From assembly GCA_021780215.1 (NCBI GenBank), contig JAJXZD010000041.1:1-47833 (forward strand): DNA of 47,833 nucleotides. Reading direction: 5' to 3'. Shown here piece after piece: positions 22,555-25,386 of the stretch (the first letter of the stretch is position 1; each line of letters opens with the position of its first letter). The position numbers were made by a program, and so were the translations under genes. The stretch is from Acidobacteriota bacterium (GTDB taxonomy: Bacteria > Acidobacteriota > Terriglobia > Acidiferrales > UBA7541). The notes below the pieces were generated by a model. The model made no database searches, was not told the origin of the DNA, and worked only from the letters and a program-made list of their open reading frames with translations.

Positions 22555-23181
22555 CTAGAACTTGCGAAGAACCCCAACCACGCGGCCCTGGATTTTTACG
22601 TCCGTCGCCGGCACGACGATCGGGGCCACGGCGGCATTGGCCGGTTGCAGGCGAATCTTTCCGCCAGGCTCGCGGTAGAAACGCTTGACGGTGGCTTCGT
22701 CCTCGCCTACGAGCGCCACCACGATTTCGCCCGGGTTGGCCACCTGAGTCTGTTCGACCACGATGAAATCGCCGTCGAGAATGTGGTCGTCGCGCATGGA
22801 TTCACCCTTGACCTGGAGCACGAAGGTGTTCGGCTTGCGGGCAAAGTCCGAAAGGGAAATGGTTTCCCGTTCCTCGACCGCCTCGAGCGGGCGGCCGGCG
22901 GCAATCCGCCCGGCTAGCGGCAACTCAACGACGGCCTGCCGCCCGAGAATCTCCTCGCGCACGGGCTTGGGAAGCTGGGTGATCTCAATCGAGCGGCTCT
23001 GGTTGTATCCGCGGCGGATGAAGCCCTTGCGCTCGAGCGTCGAGAGGTGCTTGTGCACCGTCGCAAGAGAGGTCAGCTTCAGGGCGTGGGCAATCTCCTC
23101 GAAGCTCGGCGAGTATCCGTTCTTGTTCAGGAAGCTGACGAGATAATTCAGGACTTCTTTTTGTCGCTTGGTCAGTGCCAT
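22555..23181 (-). CDS. lexA: LexA repressor
   Basis: LexA represses SOS genes and cleaves itself when RecA filaments form. The 208-residue product has an N-terminal winged helix-turn-helix (1-70, MALTKRQKEVLNYLVSFLNK and PSFEEIAHALKLTSLATVHK) and a C-terminal S24 latent protease. The cleavage site is Ala95-Gly96 in GRIAAGRPLE, the nucleophile is Ser128 in VKGESMRDD, and the general base is Lys166 in EATVKRFY, matching Ala84-Gly85, Ser119 and Lys156 of E. coli. The ATG at 23181 follows GGGAGAG. The recognition helix differs from the E. coli form, so its operator probably differs too. The IS1-like transposon sits about 80 bases upstream of its start. Confidence 0.96.
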   Translation of the reverse strand: MALTKRQKEVLNYLVSFLNKNGYSPSFEEIAHALKLTSLATVHKHLSTLERKGFIRRGYNQSRSIEITQLPKPVREEILGRQAVVELPLAGRIAAGRPLEAVEERETISLSDFARKPNTFVLQVKGESMRDDHILDGDFIVVEQTQVANPGEIVVALVGEDEATVKRFYREPGGKIRLQPANAAVAPIVVPATDVKIQGRVVGVLRKF

Positions 23182-23201: not shown

Positions 23202-23228
23202 TCGGGCGGGGGCTCCGTCTCGCGTTCC

Positions 23229-23257
23229 AGCGTAGGCGAATCTAAAGCGAAAGTCAA
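23229..23257 (-). promoter_or_regulatory. lexA promoter
   Basis: On the minus strand TTGACT (23252-23257) and TACGCT (23229-23234) are 17 bases apart. The -35 box lies only five bases from the left direct repeat of the transposon (ending at 23263), so the promoter core was spared but everything upstream of it was displaced by about 2.1 kb. Confidence 0.55.
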
Positions 23258-23262
23258 TGGTA

Positions 23263-23275
23263 CCCCGGGACAGGT
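23263..23275 (+). repeat. Left target-site duplication
   Basis: CCCCGGGACAGGT directly abuts the left inverted repeat. The same 13 bases in the same orientation lie at 25374-25386. Whether the duplication is 12 or 13 bases depends on whether T23275 belongs to the element. Confidence 0.8.
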
Positions 23276-23290
23276 AGTGGGCCAGTTTGA
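23276..23290 (+). repeat. Left terminal inverted repeat
   Basis: AGTGGGCCAGTTTGA is the exact reverse complement of 25358-25372. It marks the left end of the IS1-like element. Confidence 0.85.
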
Positions 23291-23342
23291 GCTTTTGGCC
23301 CCCTTGATTTGACGTCTCTATTGTGCAAAGCTGAGTCCCATC

Positions 23343-23570
23343 ATGCCTAAGCGTTCAAGTAAAGATGCCAACGTCACTGCTTTCAATGTCGTAGCTCAAG
23401 CCACAGGCTCACAACCCCGAAATGCCCGCAAGCCGCGCAAGAATCCTCATGCCGTCGCTCTGGGGCGAAAGGGCGGACTCAAAGGCGGTGCGGCTCGTGC
23501 CGCAAAGCTCACGCCCGAAAAGCGTCGCCAAATCGCTCAGGCTGCGGCTAAAGCTCGGTGGCAAAAATAG
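23343..23570 (+). CDS. Small basic KGG-repeat protein (transposon passenger)
   Basis: The 75-residue product is Lys/Arg/Ala-rich. The first half (PKRSSKDANVTAFNVVAQAT) is followed by a basic linker and then the motif ALGRKGGLKGGAARAAKLTP and EKRRQIAQAAAKARWQK. This C-terminal pattern recurs in small bacterial proteins sometimes labelled histone-H1-like; DNA or RNA binding is likely from charge but not shown. It lies inside the transposon between the left inverted repeat and the Ntn hydrolase gene. Its TAG (23568-23570) directly abuts the stop of that convergent gene (23571-23573) with no gap. No clear ribosome site precedes the ATG. The repeat-rich basic sequence and placement support a real gene. 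Confidence 0.7.
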   Translation: MPKRSSKDANVTAFNVVAQATGSQPRNARKPRKNPHAVALGRKGGLKGGAARAAKLTPEKRRQIAQAAAKARWQK

Positions 23571-24392
23571 TCATTCTGGCTCTTTCTCTGGTTCTCGGTT
23601 TGCCTTTGCTATCGCACGCACGTTCCTTAGCTTGCTAACAAGACTGCCAAGTTTGCTTTCAAAATCGGCATCAGTAAGGCGTATATCTCTGGCATCTGAT
23701 ACCACGAATCTCATGTCTTCCTCGAATTCCTCTCTCATCTTCTTGGAATCCCATATGTTTTGACGGCGGAGTTGCCCCGGTTTCTTCGGTAGTCGATAGA
23801 CGTGGGTGTCCCCGCCACAGTAGGGTACCTTGTCTTTCACTTCCTCTAAAATGAGCAGGGCGGCGGGCACCATTAGCCCGATGGGGTAATAATAGTCGTA
23901 TAGAATCTGAGACAGTTGTCGCCCCAGCGCGGCCCCCCAACCTATGCACTCGTAGTTCGCAATCCTCTCCACGCTTAGGCTCGCAAAATTAACGTGGAGA
24001 AGATGCGTTTCATTGTCGTCGCCCTCGGAAGAGTGGATACCGATCAGCAATTCTGGAATTTGGGAATTCGGGCTGGTCTGCAATGCAGGCGTAAAGTAGT
24101 TTTCATGGATTTCTAGGCTCTTCTCACGAATCGCCCTGCGCGCATGCTCCATCCGTCCCTCTAGGGCCATCCCCCTTAAAGCGTTATCTTCATCGCCGAG
24201 AAGGTCGCACAGGATGTCGATCCCCACGGCAATCATTGAGCGGTCTCCCGAACCGGCAAATCGCAAATCTAGGCAGCCCGTTGACCGGCGAAACATCTTG
24301 ATGTCGCTAGACTTATCTTGCTCGTAGGTCCACTGCGTATCAGCGCAAATCAGAACGCCCTCATCTAAGACATAGCCAGCAGCGATAGTCAT
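23571..24392 (-). CDS. Proteasome/HslV-like Ntn hydrolase (transposon passenger)
   Basis: The ATG at 24392 follows GGAGAGG by three bases and gives 273 residues; the frame is open further upstream, but that part overlaps the transposase gene and looks non-coding. The start TIAAGYVLDEGVLICADTQ aligns with HslV and proteasome beta subunits: after removal of Met1, Thr1 is the nucleophile, Asp17 sits in CADTQ, and Lys31 in DIKMFRR is near the catalytic Lys33. The Gly-rich LRFAGSGDR matches the AGFAGG strand of HslV. The C-terminal 150 residues (GDDNETHLLHVNFASLSVER, IGWGAALGRQLSQILYDYYY) extend well past HslV length. No HslU-like ATPase or partner subunit is present. Peptidase or amidase activity is likely; the substrate is unknown. 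Confidence 0.8.
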   Translation of the reverse strand: MTIAAGYVLDEGVLICADTQWTYEQDKSSDIKMFRRSTGCLDLRFAGSGDRSMIAVGIDILCDLLGDEDNALRGMALEGRMEHARRAIREKSLEIHENYFTPALQTSPNSQIPELLIGIHSSEGDDNETHLLHVNFASLSVERIANYECIGWGAALGRQLSQILYDYYYPIGLMVPAALLILEEVKDKVPYCGGDTHVYRLPKKPGQLRRQNIWDSKKMREEFEEDMRFVVSDARDIRLTDADFESKLGSLVSKLRNVRAIAKANREPEKEPE

Positions 24393-24449
24393 CGTCCTCT
24401 CCGGCAGAGCAACTACAGGCGATTTCGACGGAAAGCGACAGTGTACCAC

Positions 24450-24492
24450 ATGCTTGAGCGGATAAGGATTTCTCTTGACAATGCTTGAGCGG
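24450..24492 (+). repeat. Direct repeat in the transposase promoter region
   Basis: ATGCTTGAGCGG occurs at 24450-24461 and again at 24481-24492, 31 bases apart. The second copy lies between the -35 and -10 boxes of the transposase promoter, so a protein bound to these repeats would block transcription. This could be an autoregulatory site for the transposase N-terminal helix-turn-helix. Confidence 0.45.
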
Positions 24493-24503
24493 TTAGGCAT
24501 AAT
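24475..24503 (+). promoter_or_regulatory. Transposase promoter, predicted leaderless transcript
   Basis: A perfect -35 TTGACA (24475-24480) is separated by 17 bases from CATAAT (24498-24503). The expected transcription start, 24510-24511, coincides with the transposase ATG at 24511, so the mRNA should have essentially no leader, and there is indeed no Shine-Dalgarno. Confidence 0.7.
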
Positions 24504-24510
24504 CTTAGAC

Positions 24511-25356
24511 ATGAACAACCTCCCAATTGAACGCCAAATTGCAGTGATTGCGGCTCTTGTTGAAGGAAGCTCGATTCGCGCTACGGTCAGAATGACAGGC
24601 GTGGCAAAAGACACTGTGATTAAGCTGCTGGCACGCATCGGACAGGCATGTGCGGAGTATCAAGACAAAACGCTCCGCAACCTGCCGTGCCAACGAGTCC
24701 AGTGCGACGAAATCTGGTCCTTCTGCTACGCCAAAGAGAAGAACGTTCCCGAAGAACTGCGCGGCAAGTTTGGCTATGGCGATGTGTGGACGTGGACGGC
24801 GCTGTGTGCCGACACGAAGCTCGTTCCGTGCTGGCGTGTTGGTGATCGAGGCGCCTGGAACGCTCAACACTTCATGTACGATCTGGCATCCCGCCTTGCT
24901 AATCGTGTCCAGTTGACTACGGACGGGCACCGCGTTTATCTGACCGCCGTCGAACTCGCGTTTGGAACGGAAGTGGATTACGCGATGCTGGTCAAGCTGT
25001 ACGGTGCCGATCCGAAAGGGCACGAAACACGGTACAGCCCCGCGCAGTGCATCGGCGCGATGCCGACCGTGATTGAGGGGCGCCCGAATCGGAAACACAT
25101 CTCTACTAGCTTCGTCGAACGGCAGAATCTGACCATGCGGATGCAGATGCGCCGCTTTACTCGCCTGACGAATGCGTTCTCGAAGAAACTTGAAAATCAT
25201 CAGCACGCCGTTGCCCTCCATTTCATGCACTACAACTTCTGCCGTATTCACCAGACCTTGCGCGTGACTCCCGCGATGGCCGCTGGTGTTACGGACCATG
25301 TTTGGGAGATTGCCGAAATCATCGGCCTTCTCGCTGGGGCACAAAAAGCAGCGTGA
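24511..25356 (+). CDS. IS1-like DDE transposase
   Basis: The 281-residue protein has an InsA-like N-terminal helix-turn-helix (about 8-45, IAVIAALVEGSSIRATVRMT) and a DDE catalytic domain. The triad is visible as Asp66 in QCDEIWSF, Asp138 in LTTDGHRVY and Glu203 in SFVERQNLTM. The stretch RMQMRRFTRLTNAFSKKLEN parallels the IS1 InsB segment after its Glu. It is one continuous frame, unlike classical IS1 where InsA and InsB are joined by a programmed frameshift. ATG 24511 is the start; the frame-open TTG at 24475 is the -35 box. No inactivating change is seen, so the enzyme is probably functional. The family label rests on memory of the motif pattern. Confidence 0.9.
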   Translation: MNNLPIERQIAVIAALVEGSSIRATVRMTGVAKDTVIKLLARIGQACAEYQDKTLRNLPCQRVQCDEIWSFCYAKEKNVPEELRGKFGYGDVWTWTALCADTKLVPCWRVGDRGAWNAQHFMYDLASRLANRVQLTTDGHRVYLTAVELAFGTEVDYAMLVKLYGADPKGHETRYSPAQCIGAMPTVIEGRPNRKHISTSFVERQNLTMRMQMRRFTRLTNAFSKKLENHQHAVALHFMHYNFCRIHQTLRVTPAMAAGVTDHVWEIAEIIGLLAGAQKAA

Positions 25357-25357
25357 T

Positions 25358-25372
25358 TCAAACTGGCCCACT
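25358..25372 (-). repeat. Right terminal inverted repeat
   Basis: TCAAACTGGCCCACT is the reverse complement of the left repeat at 23276-23290 and begins two bases after the transposase stop. Confidence 0.85.
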
Positions 25373-25373
25373 G

Positions 25374-25386
25374 CCCCGGGACAGGT
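25374..25386 (+). repeat. Right target-site duplication
   Basis: CCCCGGGACAGGT is the second copy of the 13-base direct repeat at 23263-23275. One G (25373) separates it from the 15-bp inverted repeat. Confidence 0.8.

Follow-up and report, generated by a model that had tools for sequence, protein, structure and literature searches.

The window, the whole stretch of DNA analysed here (47,833 nucleotides from an Acidobacteriota genome), contains a minus-strand gene (24392..23571) for a proteasome-like Ntn hydrolase of 273 aa, identified by its ORF, fold, profile, and residues. The ORF begins with MTIAAGYV (the start is also given as MTIAAGYVLDEGVLICADTQ) and a Shine-Dalgarno-like GGAGAGG is found 5' of its ATG. 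The gene lies inside a complete IS1-type transposon that spans 23273..25375 (2,103 bp). The left terminal inverted repeat (GGTAGTGGGCCAGTTTGA, 23273..23290), an end type common to 142 related elements, is 94% complementary to the right one (TCAAACTGGCCCACTGCC, 25358..25375). The two repeats pair at 17 of 18 bases and bracket the Ntn gene, a transposase, and a small KGG-type ORF. Immediately outside them an 8 bp target-site duplication, CCGGGACA, was found at 23265..23272 and again at 25376..25383 (a perfect 8/8 bp), and related genomes are uninterrupted at this site. The original prediction described the gene outside any transposon setting and thereby missed its status as cargo, which is the main fact of the locus. 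That the Ntn gene is transposon cargo and encodes a proteasome-like fold can be regarded as virtually certain.

The transposase is intact, with 281 aa from a conserved MNNLP start (24511..25356, plus strand), and is 54-69% identical to its aligned relatives. It matches PF03400 with E = 2.8e-4, although its score of 21.7 bits falls just below the 24.1-bit cut-off. The element belongs to the IS1 family by its IS1-type DDE transposase, its terminal inverted repeats, and its 8 bp target-site duplication. A fragment resembling the transposase N-terminus is found elsewhere in the same genome (G000:C169:15324-15482, 51% over 53 aa). The KGG-type ORF (75 aa, MPKRSSKDANVTAFNVV..., 23343..23570, plus strand) is convergent with the Ntn gene. 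Between the Ntn gene and the transposase is a divergent promoter interval (24450..24500), where a repeat search revealed two 20-nt direct repeats (24450-24469 and 24481-24500) which form a possible operator. A promoter-like TTGACA-17-CATAAT precedes the transposase (24475..24503, plus strand), with 11 of 12 consensus matches against 0.3 expected in shuffles.

The near end of the element is about 90 bp upstream of lexA, whose start is at 23181. The sequence upstream of lexA (GCGAAAGTCAATGGTAC..GGACAG) is continuous in five related genomes (L279, L281, L282, L283, and L284). A block in this region, GCGAAAGTCAATGGTACC (window 23220-23275), shows conservation among related genomes and is a candidate lexA promoter/operator, with the element inserted at its far side.

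Further searches of genome contigs revealed at least 577 relatives of the transposase across many phyla, and viral contigs yielded another 177. The transposase is also found on alphaproteobacterial plasmids, where its relatives are annotated as IS1 family. From these, 142 distinct elements with GGTAGTG-type ends, not all of them independent, were delimited by script. Their median length is 2.9 kb, the target-site duplication is 8/8 in 118 of them, and nearly all contain cargo. The KGG-type ORF, a near-constant lysine/glycine-rich protein, has relatives in 114 of the 142 elements; on a Mesorhizobium plasmid it is annotated as 'histone H1'.

The main cargo of 130 elements was classified by Pfam matches, the most frequent of which were HTH_3 (33), Peptidase_M78 (25), SDH/ClpP-like protease (7), and Proteasome (6), followed by N6/N4 methylase (4), MqsA (2), and Bro-N (2). 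These counts were used rather than the size of a cluster into which clustering had chained the Ntn and HTH-M78 proteins together, and a quick regular expression for M78, which undercounts, was left out of them. PADLOC matches among the cargo include PD-Lambda-2_B (20), RmrA (15), and capP (14). The commonest cargo consists of HTH-M78 proteins of the ImmA/IrrE type (25/130, for example L046, L078, and L080), often accompanied by a conserved partner of about 173 aa; these proteins match the PADLOC models PD-Lambda-2_B or RmrA. ClpP/SDH-like serine proteases also recur (L081, L100, L133, L141, L145, L166, L184, and L185). Other elements contain DinD/Bro-N-type proteins, DNA methyltransferases, and MqsA-type antitoxins (L042, L147; L102, L103, L104, L181; L048, L087, L132).

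The original prediction had aligned the first 50 residues of the Ntn protein with HslV residue by residue. The HslV-type catalytic positions do match (Thr1 = T2, Asp17 = D18, Lys33 = K32, and Gly47 = G49), but the alignment itself was overstated, as a single sequence gives no significance. BLASTP of the window protein against the same genome's own HslV gave no match (E = 33), the PHROG HslV match was weak (E = 0.21, residues 7-54), and searches of Pfam, NCBIfam, and PADLOC gave no match. It was only at the level of profiles (hhalign of the Ntn family profile against HslV, E = 1.5e-4) and by fold that the similarity became significant. Moreover, no gene of the HslU, Mpa, or Anbu type is adjacent to the Ntn gene, as had been predicted, and an ordinary hslV with hslU beside it is found elsewhere in the same genome (contig C69). 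With no significant match to HslV by BLASTP or PHROG and no hslU neighbour, the protein is not assigned to HslV. The two have in common the catalytic motif and core fold, whereas the window protein is transposon-borne, has no adjacent HslU, and is longer (273 aa against 183 aa for HslV; the original prediction put the difference at about 100 residues). The reading of the protein as an Ntn hydrolase with no dedicated ATPase partner finds support.

Structure prediction, which had been proposed as a check, modelled a proteasome-like Ntn fold. In the AlphaFold2 model (seven sequences, pLDDT 70.5, pTM 0.71) the full Ntn order of strands and helices, in an alpha-beta-beta-alpha arrangement, is predicted up to residue 202. 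It is followed by helices at 216-233 and 241-264 of low confidence; the alignments are shallow and this tail is poorly modelled. Among solved structures Foldseek ranked Anbu first (E = 6.5e-11), with 20S beta subunits next. Anbu is the nearest fold, although it is only 14% identical to the window protein, which has no Anbu-operon neighbours.

The original prediction placed the motif YECIGWGAALGRQLSQILYD in an extension, as part of an unusually long C-terminal half. The motif was found to be part of the core, as it aligns with the IGSGG loop and following helix of HslV and is located at core strand 147-151 and helix 154-165 of the model. Because the profile-profile comparison pairs the family sequence GYDCIGTGLIMAKSLSERFF with HslV GICAIGSGGNYALSAARALA, this stretch corresponds to the GxG turn and helix H3 of an ordinary member of the fold. 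The HslV profile alignment and the structure model therefore rule it out as an extension, and nothing supports the suggestion that it prevents rings from assembling or confers selectivity for a small molecule. About 200 residues form the normal fold. Two segments are truly additional: a longer helix/loop at about 77-113, after H1 and before the strand that follows it, and a helical tail at 205-273 (the last 65 or so residues). The claim of an unusually long C-terminal half is right only in part. Similar helical tails are found in relatives, some of them with a D..FE..L pattern.

When the window protein was compared directly with Pfam, NCBIfam, PDB, plasmids, phages, genome contigs, and viral contigs, nothing usable was returned. 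Distant relatives were found only by searching 396 genomes of the phylum, where they have a patchy distribution (14 of 396). Their alignment (A2) contains invariant equivalents of Thr2, Gly12, Asp18, and Lys33 and one later Gly, but is too divergent for pattern scans; a narrower alignment (A3) recovered no relative. A Thr at position 2 permits removal of the initial Met, which would expose a Thr1 nucleophile assisted, as in proteasomes, by Lys and Asp. Across the Ntn proteins compared, the Thr1 and Lys33 equivalents are found in 15 of 15 and Asp17 in 14 of 15, at about 25% identity. In the cargo protein of L112 (1771-2892, minus strand) Asp17 is replaced by Asn, and this protein is perhaps inactive or altered. 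The cargo relatives in L231, L010, L112, and L259 score above the curated Pfam Proteasome cut-off (PF00227), and the window protein scores below it. Five relatives in the phylum have no sign of this transposon, and the family is therefore not confined to the element. Two relatives with no recognisable element (L072 and L073, in genomes G321 and G225) have, by eye, apparent DNA-repair neighbours (uracil-DNA glycosylase; ImuA-like and SRAP-like proteins). A search for further Ntn genes in 50 genomes that host the element gave one weak match.

HMM searches placed the Ntn family in ten elements: the window, which was the seed, L005 and L074, which came from Ntn searches, and L010, L083, L112, L231, L238, L250, and L255, which came from transposase searches alone. 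Four weaker members were also found; L259 passes the Pfam cut-off, and L236, L239, and L260 resemble the family in the N-terminal motif only. PF00227 matches 6 of 130 main cargo proteins, against a background of roughly one such gene in each genome, an enrichment with a binomial p of about 1e-11. When the Ntn label was mapped on the transposase tree (14 rows, weak members included), at least eight changes were required, six of them forced by starred branches. The cargo was also found to be exchanged. The transposases of L010 and L083 are 92% identical, their left and right ends match, and the cargo slot is identical, yet their Ntn genes have no nucleotide match and the proteins are 27% identical. 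Since such closely related transposases carry such divergent Ntn proteins in the same slot, the Ntn cargo must have been swapped. Other close pairs behave likewise, with transposases that are 75-92% identical and Ntn identity down to 22-28%. A further Ntn relative is carried in genome G257 (L071:4090-6490) by an element whose inverted repeat differs, whose 8 bp target-site duplication is CTCTGTGG, and whose transposase appears by sequence to be of the IS1595/ISXO2 type.

Several of the Ntn-bearing elements appear to lie in phage genomes. Matches to phage recombination/replication families flank L083, L231, L238, and L255, and a weaker terminase-like match is near L250. Ntn cargo was more frequent in viral contigs than in genome contigs (6/60 and 0/60, p = 0.027), and more so with the weak members (10/60 and 0/60, p = 0.0013); Pfam matches alone gave 5/54 and 1/76 (p = 0.08). 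This excess is only suggestive, as contig classification and assembly may bias the counts, and IMG/VR contigs may include host DNA. PADLOC gave no match for the Ntn cargo that was tested except for a marginal PDC-S02 for L239.

The cargo status, the fold, the conserved catalytic residues, and the swapping were each demonstrated computationally, and a mechanism can be proposed around them. Met1 would be removed to expose the Thr1 nucleophile, assisted by the Lys33 and Asp17 equivalents. The gene travels as exchangeable cargo together with the transposase, the KGG-type protein, the terminal inverted repeats, and the 8 bp duplication. The protein would be a threonine protease, or else a peptide transferase, that needs no ATPase of its own and acts on a protein outside the element, most likely in conflict between mobile element, phage, and host. 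Taken as a whole, an exchangeable, ATPase-independent Ntn cargo of an IS1-type transposon with a target outside the element is the explanation that we consider probable. An external and changing target is favoured because near-identical transposases carry Ntn proteins of about 27% identity, and because the other common cargo is toxin-antitoxin (TA)-like, defence-like, or proteolytic. The narrower proposal of an external, conflict-related protease is put forward tentatively, at somewhat less than even chances. Counted against the explanation as a whole were the near-silence of PADLOC, the Asn of L112, and the five element-free relatives, and a protease cargo could equally target the element's own proteins.

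This last possibility is the strongest alternative, though an unlikely one: the Ntn protein would serve the element itself and control transposition through cleavage of a repressor, of the KGG protein, or of the transposase. Precedents for such proteolytic control are ImmA for ICEBs1 and IrrE for DdrO. It is consistent with the proteolytic nature of other recurrent cargo (M78 and SDH/ClpP-like proteins) and with the divergent promoter interval that the window Ntn gene and the transposase share. However, Ntn proteins that differ so widely under closely similar transposases do not suit a partner that has to recognise an unchanging protein, and many elements have no Ntn gene. Much less probable is the original view of a self-standing HslV- or Anbu-like housekeeping protease with extra sequence that alters ring assembly. 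The fold and active site would fit, but it is opposed by the carriage on a transposon, the patchy occurrence in the phylum, the normal hslUV of the same genome, and the core position of the quoted motif. The wider Ntn clan is versatile, and an amidase or acylase that acts on small molecules was also considered, but it is scarcely better placed than chance capture; the Thr1/Asp17/Lys33/Gly47 set and the fold match the proteasome branch. Finally, the capture of a neutral passenger, which the highly varied cargo might suggest, is the least credible and was rejected on the PF00227 enrichment, with the repeated gain on the transposase tree, the second IS family that carries Ntn, and the catalytic residues retained at low identity also against it.

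The finding has consequences beyond this locus. Many families of bacterial proteasome-like proteins have no known function, and transposon cargo gives divergent members a first genomic setting. Their repeated gain and swapping predicts an external, changing target and supplies natural variants for testing. The transposon group itself is found in many phyla, with cargo that is often proteases and TA- or defence-like genes. A more speculative and rather doubtful generalization is that proteasome-like threonine proteases serve a widespread group of IS1-type transposons as interchangeable modules of conflict (for defence, counter-defence, or addiction) and are carried by them into phage genomes, in which case many orphan proteasome homologs would evolve as weapons of mobile elements rather than housekeeping proteases.

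Among known systems, the IS1 family (single-ORF type) and the IS1595 family resemble the window element in their DDE transposase, terminal inverted repeats, and 8 bp target-site duplication. IS1595 elements are known to carry passenger genes. The window group differs from both families in its routine cargo, its KGG-type ORF, and its median length. A full-text literature search that combined transposons with Ntn or proteasome-like proteins gave no relevant paper, with subscription literature mostly outside its scope. For the enzyme, the closest comparison is the survey of proteasome-like homologs that covers Anbu, BPH, WPH, PMI, and others, with 22 novel clusters (Fuchs, Alva and Lupas 2021; PMC8665760). 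These homologs and the window protein have in common the proteasome-like fold, the Thr1/Asp17/Lys33/Gly47 set, and variable C-terminal helices, and both are without a propeptide or an ATPase partner. The survey reports phage-borne PPH and AAH, but no informative genomic context, and transposons are unmentioned (PMC8665760). TA modules are found as passengers exchanged between related transposons of the Tn3 family (PMC7157771); these resemble the window group in their TA-type passengers but belong to a different family. Tn7-like transposons likewise carry diverse defence-type genes as cargo (PMC8649781), but are far larger and use different transposition machinery. Both the enzyme family and the kind of transposon are therefore known, and what appears to be new is their combination.
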